From assembly GCA_003246455.1 (NCBI GenBank), contig QKAF01000043.1, positions 1-36,475 of the forward strand: a DNA stretch of 36,475 nucleotides. Direction: 5' to 3'. This DNA is from Bacteroidota bacterium (GTDB taxonomy: Bacteria > Bacteroidota > Ignavibacteria > SZUA-365). The notes beneath the pieces were generated by a model that saw nothing but the letters and a program-made list of their open reading frames with translations, searched no databases and had not been told where the DNA came from. Shown one piece after another: positions 11,036-36,400 of the stretch. Position 1 is the first letter of the stretch. Each line of letters starts with the position of its first letter. The translations under genes were made by a program, and so were the position numbers.

Positions 11036-13726
11036 TCAGGCCTCGCGTTCTTCCACGCTTTCCTGCGCGTCCTCCATGACCGGCGCATCGTGCGGCACAC
11101 CGGTGAGCGCGGTTTTCTTTGCGTCAGGCGCGAGTTCGTAGGTTTCGAGTCTGCGTGCATCGTGCGCGCGCCGCGAGCGTGCGACGCCGAAGCCGAGCAC
11201 CATGATGATGATGCCTGCCCAGACGAAACTGATGAACGGTTTCAGCGACGCTTCCACGACAAGGGTCTCACGGAGATCCTTCGGATCCACCGCCACGTTC
11301 GGATTCTTCATCCGCACCTCGAGCTGTGAAAGCGCCAGGTCTTCCTTATTGGGAACCATGTTCAGAATTTCGATCTGCAGATCGCCGGCGGCGACCACGC
11401 CGGGCTCGTTCGAGACGCCGTCGGGCCCCGTCGTCTGCGCGACCATGATCTCCTGCACGTCCTTCCCATATTTCTCGACGCGGAACACGCCGCCGATGCG
11501 GAACGCCTGAGAGGTGCGGGAATTGTTCATGTCGAAATCGGTGAAGGTGATCTGGTATCCGCCGTACTCGAAGGTCTGGCCCTTCACGAATGCGAAGCGC
11601 TTGCCGCCCTCGTTGTCGGGCGCGTAGAGCGCCTGCGGTTCCACGTACACATCCGTCGCGAAAAACTTGGCGATGCCGGGATTCCGCATGATCTGTTCCT
11701 GCCCGCCGTACATCGAGACAAACATCACGGTATTGATGGTCTCGATTTCCTTTCCGGACGCAGCATCATCGAGCTTCACCTTGAAGTAGAAGCGCTCGCC
11801 GTTCCAGAACGGTTCGTTGCCGACATACGTCATACGGTAGCCTTTCCAGTCCACGGGTTCGCCCTGCTTGAGCTCGATGCTCTGGGAGGTGCTGTAGAAA
11901 CCGGAGCCGATCACACCGAGCAGCATCATGGCGACGCCGATATGGGCGACATACGCGCCGGTGTATTTCGGATTCCCGCGCACGATGCGGAAGCCGATCA
12001 CCGCGTTGGAAAGGAAGCTGAAGGAGGAGGAAAACGCGAGCAGGATCATTCCGGGGTCGTACACACCGCCGACGAACACGATGACCAGGGTCGTCGCCAG
12101 GGCGAGCGACGCGGGAAGAACCAGCTTGCGCAGCAGGTGGCTGCCGTTGGTGCTGCTCCACATGAGCAGCAGCGTGAAGCCGATCATCAGCGTCATGAGG
12201 ATGGCCAGCGGCAGGCCCATCGCATCGTAGAACGCGGCGTCGACGGTATTGCCGAGCCGCAGATCCGTCCCGAGGGTCTGGAACACGCTGTTTACCGCAT
12301 CGATGATGAACTGCGGAATGATGGGCATGGACGTTCCGACGAGAACGATGAAGGTCAGCAGTCCGACCACGCCGGCGCCGATGCCGAGCCAGGTCTCGCG
12401 CGACATCATCGCGAAGCTGTCGAATTCCTTTTCACTGTGCAGGCGGCCAGAGAACGTGTAGACGATCATCGCGAGTTTCACGATCAGCGCGGGCAGCCAG
12501 AGATAGCTCGCCAGGTTGAGCAGATGCGCGAGGCCGAGCATCGGGTAATACACCAGCAGAAGTACCGGGTTCGCGCTGCTTATCATGTCGCTGAAAACCG
12601 GGACCAGATCGCCGCTTACCTGCGCGAAGATCGGGATGCTCGGTCCGATGACGATGAGATACAGCAGGCCGTACAGTTTCCATCCGTCGTATTTCTCGAA
12701 GAGTCCCCGGCCCCACTTGGTGAAGCGGCCGAAAAGCAGCCCGAAGCCCACATCCGTGAAGGCGAACATGAAAAGCACCAGCAGCGTGAAGCTGAAACGC
12801 CCGGGATCCACGAACGAATGCACCGAAGCATCACCAAGCACACCGCTGCGCGTCAGGAAGGTCGAGTAGAGCACGAGAACGAATGCCAGGATGGCGAGAA
12901 TGAAGTTTGTGAGAATCAGACCCTTGGTCCGCTTCTGTGCGACCATGGTGTGAATCAGGGAGACGGAGATCAGCCAGGGAATCAGCGAGGCGTTCTCGAC
13001 CGGATCCCAGCCCCACCAGCCGCCCCATCCGAGCGTTTCGTATGCCCAGAAGCCGCCGAGCGCGATGCCCAGTCCGAGCACCATTGATCCGCCAACCACC
13101 CAGGGGAGAGAACTGACAACCCAGGCCTGGTATTTCCGCCGCATCAGTCCTCCGATCGCAAGCGCGAACGGCGGTGCCATCGCGGCAAAGCCCAGGAAGA
13201 GAATCGGCGGATGAATCTGCATCCAGAAATTCTGCAGAAGCGGGTTCAGTCCGCGGCCGTCCGCGGGAATCACGTTGCCCTCGATCGGGGCGAACGGATT
13301 CTTGACGATCAGCAGGAGCATGAGGAAGGACAGGATGCTCGTGTACACCCCCATGACTTCCCGCTCATTGTCGTGCTTCTGCGTGTAGGCCATAAGCACG
13401 ATGCCGATGATCGACACCATCACCGTCCAGAGCAAGAAGCTGCCTTCCTGCCCGGCGTAGAAGGTCGACATCAGCAGTCCCAGGGGCAGATCACGCGAGC
13501 TGTACGCCCAGACGTAATGAAACTGGAACTGGTGCTTGACGATGAGGATCAGCAGCAGCACGGCTGCGATGAACACCGTCGTGACCGTGATATGGAATCC
13601 CGCGCGTGCGAATCCGATGACACGCGGGTTCTGTATGCTGCGGAAGTACGCGGCGAGTCCAACCACCGAGGCGATGAAACCCAGGATGATCGCGGCGTTG
13701 CCTACGAGACCGAGAAAATCATACAT
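11036..13726 (-). CDS. ccmF: Cytochrome c maturation haem lyase subunit CcmF
   Basis: An 896-residue polytopic membrane protein of the haem-handling (CcmC/CcmF/CcsA) superfamily. The tryptophan-rich haem-binding signature GWGGWWGWDPVENASLIPW lies at about 233-251. QIHPP (H172) and further conserved histidines follow the CcmF pattern, as does AGQEGSFLLW (91-100). It receives haem from holo-CcmE and joins it to apocytochrome c at the periplasmic face. At 896 residues it is longer than the roughly 650-residue proteobacterial protein, mainly because of a soluble beta-rich region (about 600-840) before the last membrane helix. The start ATG 13726 has GGAAGGAAG upstream. A terminator lies between it and ccmE, so it may be expressed separately or at a lower level. 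Confidence 0.93.
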   Translation of the reverse strand: MYDFLGLVGNAAIILGFIASVVGLAAYFRSIQNPRVIGFARAGFHITVTTVFIAAVLLLILIVKHQFQFHYVWAYSSRDLPLGLLMSTFYAGQEGSFLLWTVMVSIIGIVLMAYTQKHDNEREVMGVYTSILSFLMLLLIVKNPFAPIEGNVIPADGRGLNPLLQNFWMQIHPPILFLGFAAMAPPFALAIGGLMRRKYQAWVVSSLPWVVGGSMVLGLGIALGGFWAYETLGWGGWWGWDPVENASLIPWLISVSLIHTMVAQKRTKGLILTNFILAILAFVLVLYSTFLTRSGVLGDASVHSFVDPGRFSFTLLVLFMFAFTDVGFGLLFGRFTKWGRGLFEKYDGWKLYGLLYLIVIGPSIPIFAQVSGDLVPVFSDMISSANPVLLLVYYPMLGLAHLLNLASYLWLPALIVKLAMIVYTFSGRLHSEKEFDSFAMMSRETWLGIGAGVVGLLTFIVLVGTSMPIIPQFIIDAVNSVFQTLGTDLRLGNTVDAAFYDAMGLPLAILMTLMIGFTLLLMWSSTNGSHLLRKLVLPASLALATTLVIVFVGGVYDPGMILLAFSSSFSFLSNAVIGFRIVRGNPKYTGAYVAHIGVAMMLLGVIGSGFYSTSQSIELKQGEPVDWKGYRMTYVGNEPFWNGERFYFKVKLDDAASGKEIETINTVMFVSMYGGQEQIMRNPGIAKFFATDVYVEPQALYAPDNEGGKRFAFVKGQTFEYGGYQITFTDFDMNNSRTSQAFRIGGVFRVEKYGKDVQEIMVAQTTGPDGVSNEPGVVAAGDLQIEILNMVPNKEDLALSQLEVRMKNPNVAVDPKDLRETLVVEASLKPFISFVWAGIIIMVLGFGVARSRRAHDARRLETYELAPDAKKTALTGVPHDAPVMEDAQESVEEREA

Positions 13727-13840: not shown

Positions 13841-14263
13841 TCAGAGCGCTGATTTCTGAACGCCATTCGTCTCGATGCCCTCGGGATGCGTCCCGTCGGG
13901 ATTGCCTTCGTACTTCGAGGGACACTTTGTCAGAACTTCACTGGCCTTGAAGACACCGTCTTCGAAACGGCCTTTCGCGACCACGCTGGTGGCGATGTCG
14001 AAGTTGTTCGGTTTCGCGCCCGCGAATTCCACTTTCGCGATGCGGTTTTCCTCGTCACGAATATAGAAACTGAACGTGTTGTTCTTTGTGTCGTAGTCGG
14101 TGCTCATGTCCTGCACCCAGCTTCCGGTGACCTGGACCTTCTTCCCGCTCTGCTCCGCCTTGCTCAGCGTGGCGTATTCCACCGAGGAGTTGAGGAAGGA
14201 GAGTCCGCCGACAATGAGAAAGGCGACGACAATGACACCGCCGATCAGATACCGCTTTTTCAT
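13841..14263 (-). CDS. ccmE: Haem chaperone CcmE, CxxxY type
   Basis: A 140-residue periplasmic haem chaperone anchored by one N-terminal helix (residues 5-24). The beta-barrel OB-fold core follows (VQVTGSWVQ, FYIRDEENRIAKVEF). The haem-attachment motif at the C-terminus is LTKCPSKYEG, that is Cys114-x-x-x-Tyr118, in place of the common HxxxY. Cys-type CcmE belongs to a variant System I known from archaea and some bacteria. The start ATG 14263 has AAAGGA 9 bases upstream, overlapping the ccmD stop region. A terminator lies immediately downstream. Confidence 0.95.
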   Translation of the reverse strand: MKKRYLIGGVIVVAFLIVGGLSFLNSSVEYATLSKAEQSGKKVQVTGSWVQDMSTDYDTKNNTFSFYIRDEENRIAKVEFAGAKPNNFDIATSVVAKGRFEDGVFKASEVLTKCPSKYEGNPDGTHPEGIETNGVQKSAL

Positions 14264-14275
14264 GATTGGGGTCCT

Positions 14276-14398
14276 TTATTTTTCCAGTTCTTTGACACTG
14301 CGATCGATGCGGAAAAGGTAGAAAAACACTCCCGCCCAGATCATCAGGACGATGAGCATTACTACGTAAATCGAATTCTGTTCCAGAAAATCGTACAT
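14276..14398 (-). CDS. ccmD: CcmD-like small membrane protein
   Basis: A 40-residue open reading frame too short for routine gene finding. It starts MYDFLEQNSIYVVMLIV and ends RIDRSVKELEK, with one membrane helix (about residues 11-29) and a charged cytoplasmic tail. This is the size and layout of CcmD, which holds the CcmABC-CcmE complex together and helps release holo-CcmE. Its position between ccmC and ccmE is the usual one for ccmD. It has a TGGAG-like ribosome site and ends 12 bases before the ccmE start. Confidence 0.85.
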   Translation of the reverse strand: MYDFLEQNSIYVVMLIVLMIWAGVFFYLFRIDRSVKELEK

Positions 14399-14419: not shown

Positions 14420-15379
14420 TTACGAAGCCGTTTCGGCCCGTCTGAGTTTGATGCGGTGAATGCGCATCTGGATGCTCATCAACCAGCCGTAAAGGACGAT
14501 ATAACCGACCAGCATCGCGTACAGCACGATGCGCATCATCGCATCCATACCGCCGCTGCTCATCACCGGACCGGAGTTGCTGTCGTCGGCCGAACCGGGA
14601 TGCAGACCCGGCATGATCCGCGGCATGATGAAAATGAAGAACGGCACGGTCGCGGCCGCGATAATGCTGTAAACCGCCGACAGTGTGGCCTTCTTCTCTT
14701 CGATCTCCACCGCGGATCGCAGTGCGAAATACGCACCGTACACGAGCAGCAGAACAAAGATCGACGTTTCCCGCGGGTCCCAGTTCCAGAACGACCCCCA
14801 GTTGAATTTCGCCCAGAGGGATCCGGTGGTGGTGCCGAGGATGCAGAAAAGCAGTCCGAGCCCGGCGGAAACCGCGGATCGGTAGTCGTCATCCATGTCC
14901 TTTTTGCGCAGGTAACGGATCCCGTACCACATCGAAACGAGGAAGGCGATCACGGTCATCCAGGCCATGGGCACATGGAAGAAAATGATTTTCGCGCGTT
15001 CCTCCAGGCCGGGAATCAGGGGGAAGGAAAAAGCGGGATATTCTCCGGTGACACGCTCGACTTCGACGCGATGGTTGTCATTATCATAGCGTGCGACCAC
15101 CAGATATCCTTCGGCATTGTCGAGACCGTCCGGACGCGACGTGAAATGGAAATCGGCCTCGCGGTCATGCGCATCGCGCCCGCGGAGCAGCCAGCCGCCG
15201 CCCTCTTCCTCCGTCGCTGCCCGGCCTCGGTCCACGATCGTGAACTTCAGCGGAACCGTTTTCGCCTTGTCCATCTGCGCGAACATCGCGACGCTGCCAA
15301 GATCTCCCGCGATGGGAGTGACAATGCCGACGACACTGAGGACGGCGATCCAGAAGAAGAGCAGAATTTTCCACCACAT
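14420..15379 (-). CDS. ccmC: Haem delivery protein CcmC with inserted soluble segment
   Basis: A 319-residue membrane protein that loads haem onto CcmE. It contains the tryptophan-rich signature NWGSFWNWDPRETS (193-206), the haem-ligand His in FFHVPMAW (H135) and the second conserved His in MPGLHPG (H260). Proteobacterial CcmC is about 240 residues. Here about 95 extra residues (26-122) separate the first helix from the HVPMAW region. They are hydrophilic and beta-like (LKFTIVDRGR, GYLVVARYDN) and probably periplasmic. ATG 15379 was chosen; a TTG two codons upstream is also open. The gap to the upstream metalloprotease is 141 bases, so an internal promoter is possible. Confidence 0.92.
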   Translation of the reverse strand: MWWKILLFFWIAVLSVVGIVTPIAGDLGSVAMFAQMDKAKTVPLKFTIVDRGRAATEEEGGGWLLRGRDAHDREADFHFTSRPDGLDNAEGYLVVARYDNDNHRVEVERVTGEYPAFSFPLIPGLEERAKIIFFHVPMAWMTVIAFLVSMWYGIRYLRKKDMDDDYRSAVSAGLGLLFCILGTTTGSLWAKFNWGSFWNWDPRETSIFVLLLVYGAYFALRSAVEIEEKKATLSAVYSIIAAATVPFFIFIMPRIMPGLHPGSADDSNSGPVMSSGGMDAMMRIVLYAMLVGYIVLYGWLMSIQMRIHRIKLRRAETAS

Positions 15380-15520
15380 ATGCAATATTTTCCTTCGTCA
15401 AGTATTCCGGACAATGTACCAACAATGTCAAAAACTTACAATGACAAGATTCCTGCCCTCGCCATCCGAATTCAAATGCAATAAATACAAAGATTTGCAG
15501 AAGCGCAATGGAAATGAGAC
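15380..15520. other. AT-rich gap upstream of ccmC
   Basis: 141 bases between metalloprotease 1 and ccmC, clearly richer in A+T than the surrounding genes. A TTGACA-like box and several TA-rich stretches lie on the minus strand, but no pair of promoter elements has convincing spacing. I see no clear terminator hairpin and no reading frame. Confidence 0.3.
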
Positions 15521-17284
15521 CTACCTGCGGATGACGGCGATTTTCCCCGTTTTCGCACCGCCCGTCCAGGTGATGCGGTAAAAGTAGACGCCGCTGGGTG
15601 CGAGCGTCCCGTGATCGGTCCTTCCGTTCCAGCTGACCGTGACTCCGGTGAGCGCATCCACCCCTATTTCCTGGTTGTCGAGCGAAGCGATCAGGTCCAT
15701 TGAAGGTCCGAAAATGCGGATTGACGCGCGATTCGCGCTGATCGCACGCGGAAGCGGCAGGTAGACTTTCGATGTACCGTCGGGACGGAATGGATTGGGA
15801 AACGGGAGGTCGTGCTCCCCGGCGATCGCACCGCCGCCTTCGAGAACGCGGGCGCAAAAATCATGATCGGACTCTACTCTGTAAGCCCACCCGTTGTCGA
15901 GCGCGTGCCAGCCCGTGTCCGAGCCGCTGCTCCGTACGCGGAGCCGGAACTGCTTGCCGCTCTTCTCCCGTTTCGACGCGGCGGCCAGATCGGTGTTGCT
16001 GACGAGAATGACGACCGTGTCGATGCCGCGGTGAACCCGGAAATACATCGATGCGAGGGGAAGAAGCGTCGCAGTGAATTCCGCTTCATCACCGAACAGC
16101 TGCTGGTCGGCCTGGAAGCTTACCACCGGGAACTCGGCGGCATGATCGTAATACTGCGGCGAGATGCGGCCCGCGCGGTACCCGGTCCAGTACACGGACT
16201 CCCCCCACTGGCAGAACAGCTGCGCGTAGTCTGCACCTGCAGCGGCGGCGGCTTCACGCAGCGCGGCCACCGGCTCAACTGTGCGCATGTTCTCCCATGT
16301 ATCGCGGAATACTCCGTCACCGAATCGCTGCGTAAGATACATCGGGTGAAGCACGAGTTCGTATCCCCGGTTTGCCCATTGATAGAACGAGACGTACGGG
16401 GTACGCATGAAATCATCCACGTACTGATGATAATCCCGGATATCGGGATAGAGTCGCGTTTCCATGAACGTGGACGACATCTCGTACATCCAGCGGTCGT
16501 TCCCCCACATTCCGTACTCCGACATCTGCACCAGGTGATGGAATTCATGCGCGACCGTCACGCGCGCCCCCTGCAGTCCGGTGGTGGCGAACTCCCGGAA
16601 ATCGTTGTCAAGATGAAGGGCGCATTCGTAGGTCGGCATCGCGGTGCCGGCATTGGGCCGGGGGAGTCCCGGGTTCACGTACCCGTACCAGACGCCGCCA
16701 AGCTCGCTGATCTCGATGGGGATGGTCGTCGTGCCGGTCGGTGGCGACGGTCGGCGATAGCCGATCTCCGAGAATCGCTGGGAGACGGAGTCCAGGATGG
16801 AGGCAAGATGATCGACGAACACATGTGCGCTCCCTTCGATGCGCCGTCCCTCGGCATCCAGCATTGCCGGTGCGTCGATACCGACGGTATCGTAGTAAAT
16901 CTCGATCAATCCGGACGGTGTCAGCCGGCGCACCTGCCGCGACTGCGGCGCGAACGCCGCCCGTATGGCTGCTGCGCTCTGCAGATCCGCGTGCTCTCTG
17001 CGGCGCAGCGCTTCGAGGATCAACCCGAAACCGCAGCCGCGCCCCTGCGGAAGCAGGGCGAGAAGTCGCGCTTCCGGGGATGCGCCAGTGGGGTGCGTCG
17101 CATATGCGAGCAGCCGGACGAACTCCGCGTCGCTCAGCGCCTGCAGCGCGGATTCGCTTTGCGACGCCGATACAGCGGACTCCTCCCCGCTGCGCCGGAG
17201 GTTGTCCTGCGCCCGCAGCGGTGTGCGGCCGGGCAATGCGAGGATGACGGACACGAGTACGAGAAGCGTGAGAACGAACTTCAT
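15521..17284 (-). CDS. Secreted HEFHH zinc metalloprotease with T9SS sorting domain (copy 1)
   Basis: A 587-residue exported protein. A signal peptide (residues 1-25, ending PLRAQ) is followed by a mixed N-terminal region and a catalytic segment TVAHEFHHLVQMSEYG (243-258) with the zinc motif HEFHH at 246-250. WMYEMSSTFMET (265-276) offers Glu268 or Glu275 as third ligand, as in M30-like enzymes. The last 100 residues (DLPFPNPFRPDG ... SGVYFYRITW ... KIAVIRR) are a T9SS type-A sorting domain, so it should be exported across the outer membrane. It resembles the MXAN_6640-type putative metalloproteases. GGAGGG 7 bases upstream fixes the ATG at 17284. It is 31 bases after ccmB and paralogous to the gene at 18599-20323. 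Substrate unknown. Confidence 0.85.
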   Translation of the reverse strand: MKFVLTLLVLVSVILALPGRTPLRAQDNLRRSGEESAVSASQSESALQALSDAEFVRLLAYATHPTGASPEARLLALLPQGRGCGFGLILEALRRREHADLQSAAAIRAAFAPQSRQVRRLTPSGLIEIYYDTVGIDAPAMLDAEGRRIEGSAHVFVDHLASILDSVSQRFSEIGYRRPSPPTGTTTIPIEISELGGVWYGYVNPGLPRPNAGTAMPTYECALHLDNDFREFATTGLQGARVTVAHEFHHLVQMSEYGMWGNDRWMYEMSSTFMETRLYPDIRDYHQYVDDFMRTPYVSFYQWANRGYELVLHPMYLTQRFGDGVFRDTWENMRTVEPVAALREAAAAAGADYAQLFCQWGESVYWTGYRAGRISPQYYDHAAEFPVVSFQADQQLFGDEAEFTATLLPLASMYFRVHRGIDTVVILVSNTDLAAASKREKSGKQFRLRVRSSGSDTGWHALDNGWAYRVESDHDFCARVLEGGGAIAGEHDLPFPNPFRPDGTSKVYLPLPRAISANRASIRIFGPSMDLIASLDNQEIGVDALTGVTVSWNGRTDHGTLAPSGVYFYRITWTGGAKTGKIAVIRR

Positions 17285-17291
17285 GCGAATT

Positions 17292-17297
17292 CCCTCC
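17292..17297 (-). promoter_or_regulatory. Strong ribosome binding site of metalloprotease 1
   Basis: GGAGGG lies 7 bases before the ATG at 17284. It decides this start over an upstream extension (to 17410) that would overlap ccmB. Confidence 0.7.
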
Positions 17298-17315
17298 GCA
17301 GTGTTCCCGGAAATG

Positions 17316-17981
17316 TCAGTCCTTCCAGACGAAATCGAACAGCAGGAATGACACGGTGGTGATAACGACGATGTACGATCCCAGCAGCTGCAGATCGGGC
17401 CACGCGGCATCCCAGCGTACGTCTTCGACGGCGATCTTCGTCGCGTTGATCCCCGCCATGAGCAGCGGCAGCAGGACGGGAAAAGACAGCACCGGGAACA
17501 GTGTTCCCTTCGTGTTCGCCTTCGCGATGATCGCCGCGATGATTGTCGTCGCAGATGCGATGCCCAGGCTTCCCAGCAGCATCACCAGCCAGAAAAGACC
17601 GAACTGGTGCACGACGAACTGGTCCATCGTCAGGAGAAACAGCGCAATGATGAACAGGTTCAGTGCCATGACCAGCACGAGATTGAAGATCAGTTTGCCG
17701 AGATAGACGGCCATCGGCTTTGCGAGAAGCTGCAGCGTCATGGTGGTGCCGCGTTCCTCCTCCGCCACGAAGCTGCGGGAGAGTCCGCTCATGGCCGCAA
17801 AAAACATGACGACCCAGAGCATGCCCGTGAGGGCGCCGGGAGTCATTGTTTCGCCGGCAAGCGCGAACATGATCACGGCCAGCGTGACGACAACGAACAT
17901 CAGCAGCGCGTTGATGGCATAACGCGTACGCAGTTCGCTTGCAAGGTCCTTGTAAAAGACGGCGATGGCCTGACGGATCAT
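17316..17981 (-). CDS. ccmB: Haem exporter permease CcmB
   Basis: A 221-residue integral membrane protein with about six helices, the ABC-2-type permease of the CcmAB complex that releases holo-CcmE from CcmC. The opening IRQAIAVFYKDLASELRTRY matches the CcmB N-terminus. EEERGTTMTLQLLAKP is the conserved cytoplasmic loop that contacts CcmA. The ATG at 17981 overlaps the ccmA stop in an ATGA, which decides this start over an upstream one at 18011. The 31-base gap after it leads into metalloprotease 1, not ccmC. Confidence 0.93.
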   Translation of the reverse strand: MIRQAIAVFYKDLASELRTRYAINALLMFVVVTLAVIMFALAGETMTPGALTGMLWVVMFFAAMSGLSRSFVAEEERGTTMTLQLLAKPMAVYLGKLIFNLVLVMALNLFIIALFLLTMDQFVVHQFGLFWLVMLLGSLGIASATTIIAAIIAKANTKGTLFPVLSFPVLLPLLMAGINATKIAVEDVRWDAAWPDLQLLGSYIVVITTVSFLLFDFVWKD

Positions 17982-18595
17982 GCGGCCTCCACGCTGATGG
18001 TGCGGTCGCATTGCGCAATATCTTCCGCGTCGTTCGTCGCGATGATCACGGTCCCGTGCGTACGGAAGTCCGCGACGATCCCGTACACGGTATTCATCCC
18101 CTGCGCATCGAGATTCGAGATCGGTTCGTCGAGCAACAGCAGAGGCGGTTTGTGCAGAATCGCGAAGACCAGGCGCATGCGCTGCTTCATGCCGGACGAA
18201 AACGCGCGGATGGGATCCGTGCGGTCGACCGGCAGACCGACGCGCTCGAGCAGTTCCTGTGCATCCCGCCGGGTATGCGTGAGACCGCGGATGCGGGCAT
18301 ACAGGGCGATGTTTTCTTCTGCGGAGAACTCTTCATACAGCGTCAGATACGGAGCGACGTAGCCCATTACCCGATGCAGATTCTCGTGCGTCACCTCGCT
18401 TCCGTCGTTGTGATAGCGAAGTGTCCCGCCCGTCGGTGTCAGAAGTCCGCCCACGATGCGCAGCAGCGTCGACTTCCCCGACCCGTTGCGCCCGGTGATG
18501 CCGAACACCTCGCCCGGTTCAACGGTGAAGGATATATCCTTGAATATCGGCCGGCGATTGAATTTCTTGCTCACATGTTCCGCGACAACCCGCAC
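17978..18595 (-). CDS. ccmA: Haem exporter ATP-binding protein CcmA
   Basis: A 205-residue ABC ATPase that powers release of haem-loaded CcmE. Walker A is GRNGSGKST (35-43). The signature reads FSSGMKQRM, and Walker B is LLLLDEP with a D-loop (SNLD). The switch region reads IIATNDAED, with Asn where most ABC ATPases have the switch His. The start is GTG at 18595, three bases after the stop of metalloprotease 2. The gene overlaps ccmB by 4 nt. Isolated, it could be any short ABC-2 ATPase; the ccmB-C-D-E-F neighbours make CcmA the best call. Confidence 0.92.
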   Translation of the reverse strand: MRVVAEHVSKKFNRRPIFKDISFTVEPGEVFGITGRNGSGKSTLLRIVGGLLTPTGGTLRYHNDGSEVTHENLHRVMGYVAPYLTLYEEFSAEENIALYARIRGLTHTRRDAQELLERVGLPVDRTDPIRAFSSGMKQRMRLVFAILHKPPLLLLDEPISNLDAQGMNTVYGIVADFRTHGTVIIATNDAEDIAQCDRTISVEAA

Positions 18596-18598
18596 GAA

Positions 18599-20323
18599 TT
18601 ACCTCTTGATCACTGCGAATTTCCCGGTTTTCTGTTCTTTGCCATACTTGATGACATAGAAGTACACACCGGAGGGAAGAAGGTCGCCCCCGTCCGTTCT
18701 CCCGTCGAATCCGACAAAGGCGCCGAAGGTATCGTCCAGTTCGATCGTCTGTGACTCGCGTCGCGCGACGGCATTCATGCTCGCGGAGAAAATGAAGAGA
18801 TCCGCCCTGTTCGTCGACAGGTTCCGCGGCAGCGGAAACTGGATGCGCGAGAACTCGTTCGGATTGAACGGATTGGGAAACGGAAGATCGCGTTCGACTT
18901 CGCTCGACGCCCCGCCTTCGAGTACGGACAGGCAGAGGCTGTTCGCCTCGCTGACACTGAATCGATATGCCCAGCCGTTATCGAGCGGCGTGAAGCTGCC
19001 GTCCCAGCCTGAGGCCATCACTTCGAGGGTGAAATCGACGCCGGTTCCCGCGCGCTGGATCGCCTGCGCGACGTTGGAGTTCGCGACGGCGAAACTGACG
19101 GTATCGATGCCCCGGTAGACGCGCATGTACATCGCTCCGGTCGGCGCCAGTGACCCGCTGATCGAGGCTTCGTTCGCGGCCAGCGACTGGTTCGCGTACA
19201 GCTGCACGCGGGCGAACGCCGGCGCGTCGTCGTAGACCGGAGGCGCGATTGCTGAAGCCCGGTACCCGGTGAAGAAATTCGCATGCGACCATGAACAGAG
19301 ATCCGCTCCCATGTCGCCGCCGCGCTGCTGGATGGCATCGCGCATCGCGATCATGGGTTCCACCTGGCGCATGCGGACCCAGAAATCACGCACGATCGTC
19401 CGATCGTACTTCTGCGTGAGAAAGAGCGGCCAGAGCGCCAGCTCGTACCCGTCGTTCCCCCACAGCCACATGGCCCGATCGGTATTGCGCATGAAGGCCC
19501 GGATGTACTGGAAATAGTCATTGACCTCGGGGTAGACCGCTTCTTCGAAGTAGGTCGAGGACATTTCATGCATCCAGCGGTCGGAAACCCAGAGCCCGTA
19601 CGTCCCGAGCTGCACCATATGGTGGAATTCATGCGCGGCGGTAACTCGCAGGCCGTTCAATCCGCGGGTTTCATACCCCAGAAAGTCGTTGTCGATTTCC
19701 ATGTACGAGGCATAGGTTGGTCGCACGGTCCCGGTCGACGGCGTCGGGAGCAGAAATCTCGTCTGTCCGTAGAGCGCACCGCGGAAATCCATCACGAAAA
19801 TATTGTACTGCGTCAGCGTCTCCTCAAACGGGGGGGCATCGAATCCGTACTCGACGACTTCGATCTGATACACGCTGTCGAAAACGGCCGCGACGGCCTG
19901 GGCGTACTCGTGGGCGGTGTTGGGAATGCGAAGGCTGTCTCCGGCGAGCAGCGCTCCCGCGTCCGTGCCGGAGGTATCATAATAGATGCGGAAGCGGCCC
20001 GAGGGACTCACGATGCTCGTGTGGCGCGCCTGCGGCTCGAGCAGTGCGCGAATGTCGGCGGCGATGGCGGGGCTGGCGGTCTGCATGCGGCGTGCCGCCT
20101 CGCTGGACACCGCGAAACCGCACTTCTCCGCCACGGAATGTCCGCCGCTGCCCGGCGTCACTGCGAGTGACGCAGGATCGCGGTACGAGCGCAAATACTC
20201 GACGAATTGCAGATCCGTCATCTCTTCCAGCGCAGTTTGCTGCGCCTGCGCGGGGACGGAGGAAAGCAGCACTGCTGCAGTCAACACGCTCAGAGTCAGT
20301 GCTCTCATGCCGGCCTTTCTCAT
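18599..20323 (-). CDS. Secreted HEFHH zinc metalloprotease with T9SS sorting domain (copy 2)
   Basis: A 574-residue exported protein, paralogous to the gene at 15521-17284. Residues 1-27 form a signal peptide ending VPAQAQ. The zinc motif HEFHH is at 231-235 in TAAHEFHHMVQLGTYG. WMHEMSSTYFEEA (250-262) holds Glu253 and Glu260, possible third ligands. Both copies share YRGIDTV-like, LDNGWAYR and DLPFPNPF segments. The C-terminus (FPNPFNPNEF ... SGVYFYVIKY ... KFAVIKR) is a T9SS type-A sorting domain. AAGGA 9 bases before the ATG at 20323 favours this start over ATG 20353, which adds ten residues. The ccmA GTG follows its stop by three bases, so the pair is certainly cotranscribed. Substrate unknown. 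Confidence 0.85.
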   Translation of the reverse strand: MRKAGMRALTLSVLTAAVLLSSVPAQAQQTALEEMTDLQFVEYLRSYRDPASLAVTPGSGGHSVAEKCGFAVSSEAARRMQTASPAIAADIRALLEPQARHTSIVSPSGRFRIYYDTSGTDAGALLAGDSLRIPNTAHEYAQAVAAVFDSVYQIEVVEYGFDAPPFEETLTQYNIFVMDFRGALYGQTRFLLPTPSTGTVRPTYASYMEIDNDFLGYETRGLNGLRVTAAHEFHHMVQLGTYGLWVSDRWMHEMSSTYFEEAVYPEVNDYFQYIRAFMRNTDRAMWLWGNDGYELALWPLFLTQKYDRTIVRDFWVRMRQVEPMIAMRDAIQQRGGDMGADLCSWSHANFFTGYRASAIAPPVYDDAPAFARVQLYANQSLAANEASISGSLAPTGAMYMRVYRGIDTVSFAVANSNVAQAIQRAGTGVDFTLEVMASGWDGSFTPLDNGWAYRFSVSEANSLCLSVLEGGASSEVERDLPFPNPFNPNEFSRIQFPLPRNLSTNRADLFIFSASMNAVARRESQTIELDDTFGAFVGFDGRTDGGDLLPSGVYFYVIKYGKEQKTGKFAVIKR

Positions 20324-20337: not shown

Positions 20338-20376
20338 GAAGCTCTCTGTTCATTCAACCATCAGCCGTGAATTCGG

Positions 20377-20871
20377 TCAGCCCATGCGCTTCTGACGGCG
20401 CTCGAGCGCCTGCTCGAACCTGCGGCTCTGCTCGTCCGTCTCCGGTATCACCTGCGGCGACGGAGTCGGGACGCCCTCGTCGCTGAGTCCCACGAAGGTC
20501 ATATACGCCGAGTTGGTATGCAGCCGCCGTCCGGTTTGCGTGTCCTCGCCGAAAACCTTCACGCCGACTTCCATCGAACTGCGGAAAACGCGGTTGACGG
20601 AGGCCTGCAGCACCACGACCTGGCCGAGTTTGATGGGATTGTGGAAATCAATGCGGTCCACGGACGCCGTGACGCACACCAGCCCGGAATGCCGCGACGC
20701 GGCGATGCCCATCGCAATATCCATCCAGTGCATGAGGCGTCCGCCGAGGAGGTTCCCGAGGAGATTCGTATCGTTCGGAAGCACCAGTTCGGTCATCTCG
20801 ACCTGGGATGCGCGCACGGTATGCCGCGGCGCGGGAGCTTCGACCGGGAGGGAGGGATTCTGTCCGCTCAT
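20377..20871 (-). CDS. Acyl-CoA thioesterase, hot-dog fold (YciA/ACOT type)
   Basis: A 164-residue cytoplasmic thioesterase that hydrolyses acyl-CoA to the free acid and CoA. LPNDTNLLGNLLGGRLMHWM (31-50) followed by Asp51 is the hot-dog catalytic helix, and VTASVDRIDFHNPIKLGQVV is the following conserved strand region. The size is right for one hot-dog domain; members act as oligomers. It overlaps bamD by 4 nt (ATGA) and is the last gene of this coupled run, 53 bases before metalloprotease 2. Chain-length preference cannot be read from the sequence. Confidence 0.88.
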   Translation of the reverse strand: MSGQNPSLPVEAPAPRHTVRASQVEMTELVLPNDTNLLGNLLGGRLMHWMDIAMGIAASRHSGLVCVTASVDRIDFHNPIKLGQVVVLQASVNRVFRSSMEVGVKVFGEDTQTGRRLHTNSAYMTFVGLSDEGVPTPSPQVIPETDEQSRRFEQALERRQKRMG

Positions 20872-21644
20872 CGCAGCTCACTGCTCTGGCGCAGCCGATC
20901 CGAGGCGGCGGCCATGTTCGACTCCACCTCGCCGCGGTACTCGCTCGACGGATATTTTTCCATGAATTCCTTGCCGGAGGCGATGGCATCCGCGTAGCGT
21001 TTCATGGCGAGGAGGGAGCGCACCTTTCCGGCCATGGCGTCATCCGCGTACTCGGTGCTGTAATACCGATCGACCACGCCGCTGAAATAGATCAGCGCCG
21101 ATTCCGGCACTTCCAGCTTCTCATAGAGGATGGCGGTGTTGTATTCCTTTTCCGCGAGCCGATTCACCAGTTCGAGCACCTGCTGTTCCACGTCCTGCGC
21201 CTTCGGATGCTTGGGATAGGCTTCAACGAAGTTCTGCAGGGCATCGATGGCGCGCATGGTGTAGGACTGATCCAGATCCACCTTTGGCGAAAGTTCGTAG
21301 TAGCACTGTGCGAACTGATAGTACGAATCGGCCATCAGTTCCCGCGACGCGCCGCTCTGGATGATCTGGTTGAATTCATAGGAGGCGAGCAGGTATTCCT
21401 CTCGCTGGAAACGGGAAAGCGCCGTAAAATACCGCGCGCTGTCAGCCACGGAACTCCCGGGATACTGCAGCCGGATCACTTCGAAATGCTGAATGGCTTC
21501 CTGGTAATTTTCATCCTGGAACTCTTCCATACCGAGCCGGAACTGCTGCTCCGCCGTTGGATTGTCAGGCAGGTCGCTGGAACTGCAGGCGAACAGCACG
21601 GCAGCGGTGCACAGGAGCGGCACGATTCTGAAGAACGATGTCAT
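20868..21644 (-). CDS. bamD: Outer membrane assembly lipoprotein BamD
   Basis: A 258-residue lipoprotein of the BAM complex, which inserts beta-barrels into the outer membrane. The signal ends in LFAC (Cys20, the lipidation site), followed by SSSDLPDNPTAEQQFRLGME and a run of TPR helices (YPGSSVADSARYFTAL, YPKHPKAQDVEQQV, KYPSSEYRGEV) typical of BamD/ComL. ATG 21644 was chosen because it opens the signal peptide and overlaps the upstream stop by ATGA; a longer frame to 21731 has no such support. It also overlaps the thioesterase gene. bamA is not in the window. Confidence 0.93.
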   Translation of the reverse strand: MTSFFRIVPLLCTAAVLFACSSSDLPDNPTAEQQFRLGMEEFQDENYQEAIQHFEVIRLQYPGSSVADSARYFTALSRFQREEYLLASYEFNQIIQSGASRELMADSYYQFAQCYYELSPKVDLDQSYTMRAIDALQNFVEAYPKHPKAQDVEQQVLELVNRLAEKEYNTAILYEKLEVPESALIYFSGVVDRYYSTEYADDAMAGKVRSLLAMKRYADAIASGKEFMEKYPSSEYRGEVESNMAAASDRLRQSSELR

Positions 21645-22246
21645 GAAGATCCTCGTACGGTGAAAAGCAAAACGACAATGACGGCGGCGGTGACAGTCAC
21701 GAGCACGGGCTCGAGCAGTCCGTCCCACCACGACGTCTCGTCGTCGAGATACGAATGATACGCGAACGGCGCCTCGCCCTGCAGCGTGTCGCTGCGCTCT
21801 GCGGTGCGTTCGCGTGAATAGGCCAGTTTCCCCGAGCGTTCCTCCACGAGAATGCCGAGAGTGGCCACAGTCTTACGAAGATAGGAAGAATTTCCGGCGG
21901 AAACAGCAGACGAATACATCTCCCTCGCATCCACGTGCACCCGGCACTGCTCCCCGTCGCCCGTGGTCTGGACCGGGAGTCCGCGATCCATCAGCGCCTC
22001 GGAGAACACCTGTCTGAGCACGACCGGGGCTTCGCCGGGCGTGATCTGCAGGAGAACCGGACCCGACGGACATGCCGAAGCGGTTTCCGCCGCGATTTCG
22101 CGGAGAACCTGTACGATCGCCTGCTGCTCGCTGACGGGTCCGCTCTGCGCCGACACGCTCTGCGTTGACACAGGCTGCGCCGACACGGGCCGCGCCGCAG
22201 TGCCGCAGACAAACGCGATCATGAGGTATGCGGCGATCCGCCTCAC
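21641..22246 (-). CDS. Unknown exported, C-terminally anchored protein coupled to bamD
   Basis: A 201-residue protein that I do not recognise. Residues 1-24 are a signal peptide (RRIAAYLMIAFVCG). Next comes a short Ser/Gln-rich repeat (SAQPVSTQSVSAQSGPVSEQ), then an alpha/beta-like soluble region with two cysteines. One C-terminal membrane helix follows (LLEPVLVTVTAAVIVVLLFTV, about 177-197). It starts with GTG at 22246, overlapping the nitrilase stop in GTGA, and ends in an ATGA overlap with bamD. A much longer frame to 22663 only runs antisense to coding phase inside the nitrilase gene and was not used. The coupling suggests an envelope role, but this is inference. Confidence 0.75.
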   Translation of the reverse strand: MRRIAAYLMIAFVCGTAARPVSAQPVSTQSVSAQSGPVSEQQAIVQVLREIAAETASACPSGPVLLQITPGEAPVVLRQVFSEALMDRGLPVQTTGDGEQCRVHVDAREMYSSAVSAGNSSYLRKTVATLGILVEERSGKLAYSRERTAERSDTLQGEAPFAYHSYLDDETSWWDGLLEPVLVTVTAAVIVVLLFTVRGSS

Positions 22247-33985: not shown

Positions 33986-36400
33986 TCAGCGAGCGTCGCC
34001 GAGATACACGAAGGCCGCCCAGTAGTACGGGAACGTCCAGTCTTCGTCCTCGCCCTGCGCGAGCATGTCGAGGGCGGCGCGGCGCGCGGCCTGCATCTTG
34101 CTCATGCCGCCGCGCAGCCAGGCACGGTAGAAATTCCGCATCCAGGTCAGCGTGGCGGCGTCATCCACCACCCAGAGCGAGGCGATCACGGACGGTGTCC
34201 CCGCGTACATGAACGAACGGGTCAGACCGACCAGGTCATCGCCGGCCGTGAACGCTCCTTCTCCGCCCGAAAGCTGCGCGGTCTGGCACGCACTGAGCGT
34301 GACCAGTACGGCATTGAGGTCGAGATTGAAGATCTTGGCGACGGTCAGATCGCCGTCGTTGACGCTGTCGGGATGCGCCGCGGCCAGAAGGATGCGCGAC
34401 TGCATGGGATTGTCCTTGTTCAGTTCCCCGTGCGTGGCGAAATGCAGCAGATCGCGCGAGCCCATCACCCCTTTGACGACGCTTTCTTCCGCAGCTTCAC
34501 GCTTGAGCACGAGAGCATCGCCCGCATACCGGGCAACCGTGTCGGCTTCGATCAGCGCCCCGTCGAGCGGATGGCGCCGGTACTTTGCATCGGCATACAG
34601 CGGATCACCGACGATGAGCGCCGTGGCGGCGCGGTGCACGTCCTTCTGCATCGCAAAGCCCAGCACGCTGGCAGACGGAAGGTAGGCCACGGCGTAGTCC
34701 TCGATGAGGTAGCGGGGACGCACCACGTGCCGGTCCGCCGAGAAATCTATCCCGAGCGGAGTAACGAGTGCCTGGAACGGCAGGTGATGCAGAGGGCCGT
34801 GGGGAACGACGTACAGCTGGGTGACTCCCCGAAGGGCCGGCGCGACAGGCGCGACGAGCAGGGAGTACATGTTCAGGAGTTCGTATTGCCACGATGGATC
34901 CGTTTTCTCGGCATACCATGCGCGAAGCGCTTCCTCGCTGCCCGCATTCCTGCCGAGCCGCTGCTCGCGAATGAACCCCAGCTTTTTCATCGGGAAATCG
35001 TAGTAGAGGCTGCGGCGCACTTTTTCGATCGCCTTGTCGAGATTGAAATCGGGATCGAATTCGAGGCGACGGACGAGGACCGTGTCCCGCCGCACGAGAA
35101 AAACAAAGGACGCGGCTTCGCCCACGAAATACTCGAGCACTGCGGTACTGTCGTCGAGCATTGCCTGCAGGCGAGGCAAGGGCACGGGGTCGATGCTCTT
35201 GACGGACGCATATTCCGGATCGGCATGACGGAGTTCCGCGAGCGTCTCCTGATGTTCGGCGATGGCTTTGCCCAGGGCGTCGCTGCTGTCGGTGCTGCGT
35301 ACGAGATCGGAGATCCGCTGCTGAAGTTGCTGTTCGCGCTGTACGAGCCGCTCGACCTCCGGCGGACGCTCCTTCCCCTCGCCGATCGCCTTGTTCCCGA
35401 GCAGATCGAGGAACGAACGCGCTTTCGCTCGTTCGACGTACTCGAAGGCGCGGCTGACCTCGCCCCGCGTCACGAGAATGTTGATCAGGTTTTCATAGAT
35501 GAAAAATTTGCTCGAAATAAAGCTGGTGCGAATATCCACCGACGAGAGATTTCCGCGCAGCTCTTCGAGAATCTCGATGCTTTTTTCGAGCACGTCCGCA
35601 GCCTCGTCGAGGCGTCCGAGCCGCTGGGCCAGCACGCCGATGTTCCCGAGCGCGAGCGCGCGCTGCACGCGGAAACCGTCCCGCGCATAGATCTCCTCGG
35701 CCCGGCGATAGCAGACGATGGAACTGTCGAGGGCATTGTCGAGCGAATAGTTGTTGCCGAGGTTCAGCCATGCGTCTCCCGTCGGATACAGCGCGAGGGA
35801 GCGCAGGAAACAGCCCTGTGCGATTTGATGAAGATGCAGGGCAGCAGTGGTGTCTCCCCCGGCGAGACGAACGATCGCGTGCTGATGATACACGTCACCG
35901 AGGTTATACAGCGAAATGGCGGCATGGTAGGTGTCGCCGCGCGCGCTGTCGTAGGCGTGGACATTGCGAAACAGCTGCTCCGCGTCCGCGAAGCGCCCGG
36001 CGCCCTTGTACACCACCCCGGTGTTGCTCAGCACGTTTTGCCGTTCGTCGAACCACCGGCGGTCGACCGGAATTCGCAGACTGTCGCCGCGCGCGATGCC
36101 CTGTTCGAGCAAGGCAAGGCTGCGCTGATAATGCTTCAGCGCGGCGTCCGCCTGTTCGTAGGCCAGCTGAATGCTCCCGAGCCATTTTTCGGACTGTGCC
36201 TCGAGGAGAAGATCCGCCGTGCTCGCGGCCTCGTCGCGGAGATCCGTAAAGTGTTTTTCCGCGCGATCGAACTCCGCCCGGTCATACAGCGCCCGGCCCG
36301 AGACGATGCGCGGATCTTCGGGTGCAAGATCGCTTCCTCCGCCGCAGGCGGTGAACAGGATTCCGGCAATCAGCAGCGCCAGGTGAATGCGGCGTTTCAT
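33986..36400 (-). CDS. Predicted lipoprotein with TPR repeats and a CHAT caspase-like protease domain
   Basis: An 804-residue protein. The signal ends in LFTACGGG (Cys19), a probable but not perfect lipobox. Residues 30-330 are TPR repeats (ALYDRAEFDRAEKHFTDL, YNLGDVYHQHAIVRLAGGDT, ALALGNIGVLAQRLGRLDEA). A coiled-coil stretch follows (VQREQQLQQRISDLV). The CHAT domain fills about 400-804, with the catalytic His657 in HFATHGEL and Cys705 in TLSACQTAQLSGGEG, both intact. CHAT proteases cut partner proteins, often in programmed death or defence; a secreted, membrane-attached one would act outside the cytoplasm. Its ATG overlaps the preceding gene's stop (ATGA). Substrate unknown. Confidence 0.9.
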   Translation of the reverse strand: MKRRIHLALLIAGILFTACGGGSDLAPEDPRIVSGRALYDRAEFDRAEKHFTDLRDEAASTADLLLEAQSEKWLGSIQLAYEQADAALKHYQRSLALLEQGIARGDSLRIPVDRRWFDERQNVLSNTGVVYKGAGRFADAEQLFRNVHAYDSARGDTYHAAISLYNLGDVYHQHAIVRLAGGDTTAALHLHQIAQGCFLRSLALYPTGDAWLNLGNNYSLDNALDSSIVCYRRAEEIYARDGFRVQRALALGNIGVLAQRLGRLDEAADVLEKSIEILEELRGNLSSVDIRTSFISSKFFIYENLINILVTRGEVSRAFEYVERAKARSFLDLLGNKAIGEGKERPPEVERLVQREQQLQQRISDLVRSTDSSDALGKAIAEHQETLAELRHADPEYASVKSIDPVPLPRLQAMLDDSTAVLEYFVGEAASFVFLVRRDTVLVRRLEFDPDFNLDKAIEKVRRSLYYDFPMKKLGFIREQRLGRNAGSEEALRAWYAEKTDPSWQYELLNMYSLLVAPVAPALRGVTQLYVVPHGPLHHLPFQALVTPLGIDFSADRHVVRPRYLIEDYAVAYLPSASVLGFAMQKDVHRAATALIVGDPLYADAKYRRHPLDGALIEADTVARYAGDALVLKREAAEESVVKGVMGSRDLLHFATHGELNKDNPMQSRILLAAAHPDSVNDGDLTVAKIFNLDLNAVLVTLSACQTAQLSGGEGAFTAGDDLVGLTRSFMYAGTPSVIASLWVVDDAATLTWMRNFYRAWLRGGMSKMQAARRAALDMLAQGEDEDWTFPYYWAAFVYLGDAR

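Follow-up and report, generated by a model that had tools for sequence, protein, structure and literature searches.

Why should the gene for a secreted zinc metallopeptidase stand inside an operon for cytochrome c maturation, and why should it stand there twice? The question is raised by the window, a stretch of 36,475 nucleotides from a Bacteroidota genome (GCA_003246455.1, contig QKAF01000043.1). The genes ccmA, B, C, D-like, E and F occur here in the usual order of the System I operon (ccmABCDEFGH); unlike in that operon, a gene for a secreted metallopeptidase precedes ccmA and a second copy of it splits ccmB from ccmC. Read along the minus strand, the order is nitrilase-like gene, BamD, 4HBT thioesterase, protease-2, ccmA, ccmB, protease-1, ccmC, ccmD-like, ccmE and ccmF, and the features discussed below are:

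20868–21731, minus strand: BamD/YfiO lipoprotein, conserved upstream neighbour (TIGR03302 above cut-off; synteny)
20377–20871, minus strand: 4HBT thioesterase, upstream neighbour kept in most of the class (PF03061; synteny)
18599–20323, minus strand: protease-2, MXAN_6640-family zinc metallopeptidase, 574 aa (NF045524, 152 bits)
18602–18607, minus strand: AAGAGG, the last two codons of protease-2 and likely ribosome binding site of ccmA (read from the sequence)
17978–18595, minus strand: ccmA, haem-release ABC ATPase, GTG start (PF00005; TIGR01189, 127 bits)
17316–18011, minus strand: ccmB (PF03379, 60.6 bits)
15521–17284, minus strand: protease-1, second copy, 587 aa, between ccmB and ccmC (NF045524, 135 bits)
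14420–15385, minus strand: ccmC, with the ATG at 15379 as a possible start (PF01578, 86.9 bits; TIGR01191, 95.7 bits)
14276–14398, minus strand: ccmD-like ORF, 40 aa, one hydrophobic span (size, position and appearance, without a profile match)
13841–14263, minus strand: ccmE (PF03100, 66 bits)
11036–13726, minus strand: ccmF/nrfE-type haem lyase (PF01578, PF16327; TIGR03145, 263 bits)

Open reading frames and profiles bear out the order given in the initial annotation, protease-ccmAB-protease-ccmCDEF, with ccmD identified by form and position only. Pfam and NCBIfam profiles place the System I genes ccmA, ccmB, ccmC, ccmE and ccmF together at the locus, the CcmA score being slightly short of the TIGR01189 cut-off (131.6 bits); no ccmG or ccmH was seen there among the annotated ORFs of the window. 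The start of protease-2 was taken at MRKAG (the ORF could begin at 20353) and that of protease-1 at MKFVL (the longest ORF begins at 17410, within ccmB). Rfam found no RNA families in the window, and a scan of it for promoters and terminators did no better than on shuffled sequence. Elsewhere in the window, an 804-aa minus-strand ORF (33986–36400) was read by eye as a TPR protein whose C-terminal domain is a CHAT peptidase.

Aligned over 561 aa, the two proteases are identical at 43% of positions (E = 2e-158); their own genome holds no other member of the family. Their description as HEFHH zinc-protease paralogues is confirmed: both contain HEFHH (residues 231–235 in protease-2) and both belong to the MXAN_6640 HExxH family NF045524 (cut-off 140 bits), which protease-2 passes and protease-1 narrowly misses. 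The NF045524 model is matched by all 38 homologues that were aligned, and H231, E232, H235, Q238, E253 and E260, which include the HExxH motif and the downstream glutamates, are invariant among them, as would fit an active zinc peptidase. Purifying selection acts on both copies (dN/dS about 0.14 for protease-1 against its counterpart in the sister species G003, and 0.09 for the other copy, with dS saturated). When the alignment profile was compared with solved structures, the peptidase part found no match and only the C-terminal domain was matched; a structure predicted from eight sequences was of poor quality (mean pLDDT 53), with the catalytic half mostly below 50.

NF045524 has no assigned function, and the linkage to ccmA described here was observed in one class only. 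Within that class, 100 relatives were surveyed, ranging from congeners to more distant members of the class and comprising 21 families (18 with the protease); linkage was scored where ccmA lay downstream in the same orientation, no more than about 150 nt from the protease match. The protease was found in 88 of the 100 relatives, and ccmA lies directly downstream of it in 71 of these 88 genomes and in 15 of the 18 protease-bearing families. Matches in G011 and G037 sit at contig ends and fall outside the 71, and a gap of 962 nt in G074 is mostly an artefact of a partial match. Gene neighbourhoods were annotated for 60 loci, which put f21, f22, f23, f25 and f26 among the linked families. The block is fuller in many families (BamD, 4HBT, FG-GAP beta-propeller, protease, ccmA, ccmB, ccmC, ccmE, ccmF); the protease-ccmA pair stands without ccmB downstream in 21 genomes of f5, f9, f16 and f17. 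The MXAN_6640-type protease gene is thus an old, class-wide member of a BamD-thioesterase-(beta-propeller)-protease-ccmABCEF string. A search of full-text literature, whose coverage excluded subscription papers, found no description of the protease-ccmA pair.

The association has limits within the class and beyond it. Ccm genes are present and no protease was detected in families f7, f10 and f15, in two of which (f7 and f15) ccmA directly follows the 4HBT gene, and in f12 the protease is located elsewhere, away from ccmA; the protease is therefore not essential to Ccm. Ten loci sampled from five families in other classes of the phylum (L104–L112, L114) have no ccm neighbour, nor do the two examined loci of Latescibacterota (L043 and L044), which alone represent other phyla; one of the latter carries a tandem pair of MXAN_6640-type proteases with no ccm genes nearby (L044, 9809–13280). 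CcmB also occurs in 75 of the 76 protease genomes listed outside the class, a figure that is confounded by kinship and was given no weight. Such proteases might have proved to occur mostly in unrelated contexts: this is not so within the class, but it holds in other classes. The functional link proposed in the initial annotation survives in changed form, as a tight, class-wide linkage of a single-copy protease to ccmA, and not as a flanking of ccmAB by two copies, which is local.

The junction between the two genes is short. Across 29 loci, with ccmA start codons chosen by alignment, the spacing between the protease stop codon and the probable start of ccmA is 0 nt at the median and at most 10 nt in 26 loci, and the genes overlap in 13; this suggests that protease and ccmA are translationally coupled. 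Protease-2 ends in AAG AGG TAA; next come TTC and then the ccmA start codon GTG, exactly the three-base spacing that had been claimed. From its place directly before TAA TTC GTG, AAG AGG is the likely ribosome binding site of ccmA, and similar motifs (GAGG, GGAG or GGAA) occur in G001, G002, G003 and G005.

The second copy has a narrower history. Among the genomes searched, a protease gene between ccmB and ccmC occurs only in the genome of the window (G000) and in its sister species G003, so the bracketing arrangement is not confined to one genome but extends to one relative; the two copies bracketing ccmAB are a local accident and not a feature of the class. In a midpoint-rooted protease tree, sequences of the class split from unlinked homologues (support 100/96), and protease-1 groups with its G003 counterpart, nested within the same family. 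The proposed duplication into the operon is real in this sense, the second copy being a duplicate that is specific to this lineage and was inserted between ccmB and ccmC. In topology tests, to be read with caution for long branches, a single clade with all copies of the genus was not rejected (p 0.15), and an origin of protease-1 inside the copy-2 lineage of G000 and G003 was rejected (p 0.0002); because of this rejection, the duplicate either is so old that G001 and G002 could since have lost it or has evolved fast. A different insertion was observed in two relatives of the same family, where a multi-PAS hybrid histidine kinase (about 950–1050 aa) lies between ccmA and ccmB (L050, 7468–10629; L051, 9749–12586).

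A signal peptide is present on both proteases, as judged by eye, in agreement with the initial annotation; the T9SS sorting domain also described there does not hold as a canonical one, since the tail is divergent and below every curated cut-off (12.9 and 13.1 bits against TIGR04183, cut-off 23; 21.1 and 16.4 bits against PF13585, cut-off 27). T9SS type A tails (PorU, PorZ, Tannerella KLIKK) have in common with the linked proteases an Ig-like fold and a near-invariant lysine in the C-terminal strand (K568, kept in 90% or more of the 38 rows), but the linked proteases differ from them in these low scores and in the glycine of the strand 3–4 loop. Only 9 of 51 linked members retain this glycine, the other 42 having replaced it, most commonly with Met, as in both window copies; it is present throughout the sets compared, namely unlinked homologues (15 of 15), PorU-type proteins (5 of 5) and other tailed proteins (6 of 6). 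At this site in RgpB of P. gingivalis, a Gly-to-Arg change blocks secretion and a Gly-to-Pro change was reported to be tolerated, and in mirolase, a T9SS cargo of T. forsythia, Met replaces the motif glycine (PMC11285876). Since a T. forsythia cargo has the Met variant, loss of the glycine does not exclude secretion, and the argument that this loss proves a periplasmic location was rejected on the mirolase swap and the tolerated Gly-to-Pro change. T9SS parts are encoded in the window's own genome and found across the class, SprA being present in 98 of 100 relatives, G000 included. With the lysine kept, the glycine swap tolerated elsewhere and the tail resembling a sorting domain, T9SS export of the ccmA-linked protease is likely.

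The same genome holds a candidate for a shared route: an octahaem c-type cytochrome whose T9SS sorting domain scores above the Pfam cut-off (L147, 3381–4784; G000 contig 111). Given the T9SS parts and this tailed cytochrome, the Ccm and T9SS routes would meet in this organism, and Ccm-made cytochromes probably enter the T9SS route, which makes processing of surface cytochromes by the linked protease plausible. G000 also has a very large locus for multihaem cytochrome, in which dozens of CxxCH motifs are distributed among three reading frames (L145, 5300–11503; contig 2); it is perhaps one gene in a frameshifted assembly.

The explanation that we consider best overall, and put forward tentatively from sequence comparisons, is that the protease is a zinc endopeptidase of the envelope, translated together with the genes for cytochrome c maturation and sharing Ccm's route. 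Protease and CcmA would be co-transcribed and translationally coupled; the protease would be exported by Sec into the envelope and then probably pass to the surface by T9SS, using its divergent C-terminal domain; there it would work as a zinc endopeptidase and, in what is the least certain step, may serve the envelope route of Ccm by trimming c-type cytochromes or other exported proteins, or by clearing them. A narrower version, in which the CcmA-coupled MXAN_6640-type protease helps System I maturation or the T9SS export of multihaem cytochromes by clearing or processing apocytochromes, CcmE or surface cytochromes, is rather unlikely in this specific form.

A different account, a serious possibility that we would not yet prefer, is a frozen housekeeping operon, in which the genes share a promoter for similar levels of envelope-building products and the protease has no biochemical tie to cytochromes. 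The neighbours BamD, 4HBT and nitrilase are unrelated to haem, and BamD-4HBT-ccmA is retained in families without the protease. On a concatenated tree of neighbour genes, which is rough because several rows have few genes, the protease-ccmA adjacency and the ccmA-ccmB adjacency each require five changes; the former is thus conserved no better than operon pairs in general, and the proposal that it is the more durable of the two was not upheld. In the same tree f7 and f15, which lack the protease, branch among linked families, a position that favours its loss there. A specific tie is nevertheless hinted at by f16, f17, f25 and one f21 genome, in which the protease-ccmA pair stands alone, with neither BamD and 4HBT nor the other ccm genes beside it. 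The frozen envelope operon fits almost as well as the cytochrome-linked reading.

It is improbable that the protease is an accessory of T9SS itself, whose C-terminal domain would stay attached, as it does in PorU and PorZ, and not be removed as it is from cargo. The tails of PorU and PorZ stay uncleaved (PMC11285876), and among solved structures the alignment best matches the C-terminal domain of PorZ (5m11, E = 1e-5). Several linked members weakly match PorU or PorZ models and remain below the cut-off of the canonical tail model TIGR04183, which the five unlinked homologues scanned all pass; but every one of the PorU/PorZ matches is weak and falls on the shared Ig-like fold, and PorU is matched by unlinked homologues as well. 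C25/PorU-type peptidases occur in every one of the 100 relatives, which leaves no sortase missing, and a role for the protease as stand-in for such a sortase was rejected on the same count.

More improbable still is the scavenging of haem, also raised in the initial annotation, or of nutrients, in which a protease at the cell surface would break down haem proteins from the environment and so supply the Ccm pathway. The gene lies near haem-handling genes and surface export is probable, but acquisition of haem from haem proteins finds no support; the annotated neighbours include no haem receptor or uptake gene, and CcmABC acts on haem already within the cell.

For NF045524, a zinc peptidase family without a function, the tie to ccmA in one class, usually with no spacer, provides a strong lead. 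If the cytochrome-linked reading is right and the tie is functional, cytochrome c biogenesis in these T9SS-bearing bacteria would gain a proteolytic step that is absent from standard models; if it is not, protease-ccmA would be a clean case of a deeply frozen envelope operon.

Two further genes were observed upstream of the protease. An exported FG-GAP beta-propeller protein of about 700–740 aa is encoded between thioesterase and protease in many families (for example L060, 6709–8940; L063, 6683–8821; L059, 12339–14522; L065, 5711–7909) and is missing from this gap in the family of the window. In f8, f16 and f21, a small exported protein of 137–145 aa is encoded just upstream of the protease (L061, 7954–8379; L097, 9603–10040; L068, 7905–8318; L098, 9282–9707; L099, 7920–8345; L066, 6547–6960); the two that were scanned had no Pfam match, and its tail, (R/K)TWGM(I/L)KEMFR, is nearly invariant.
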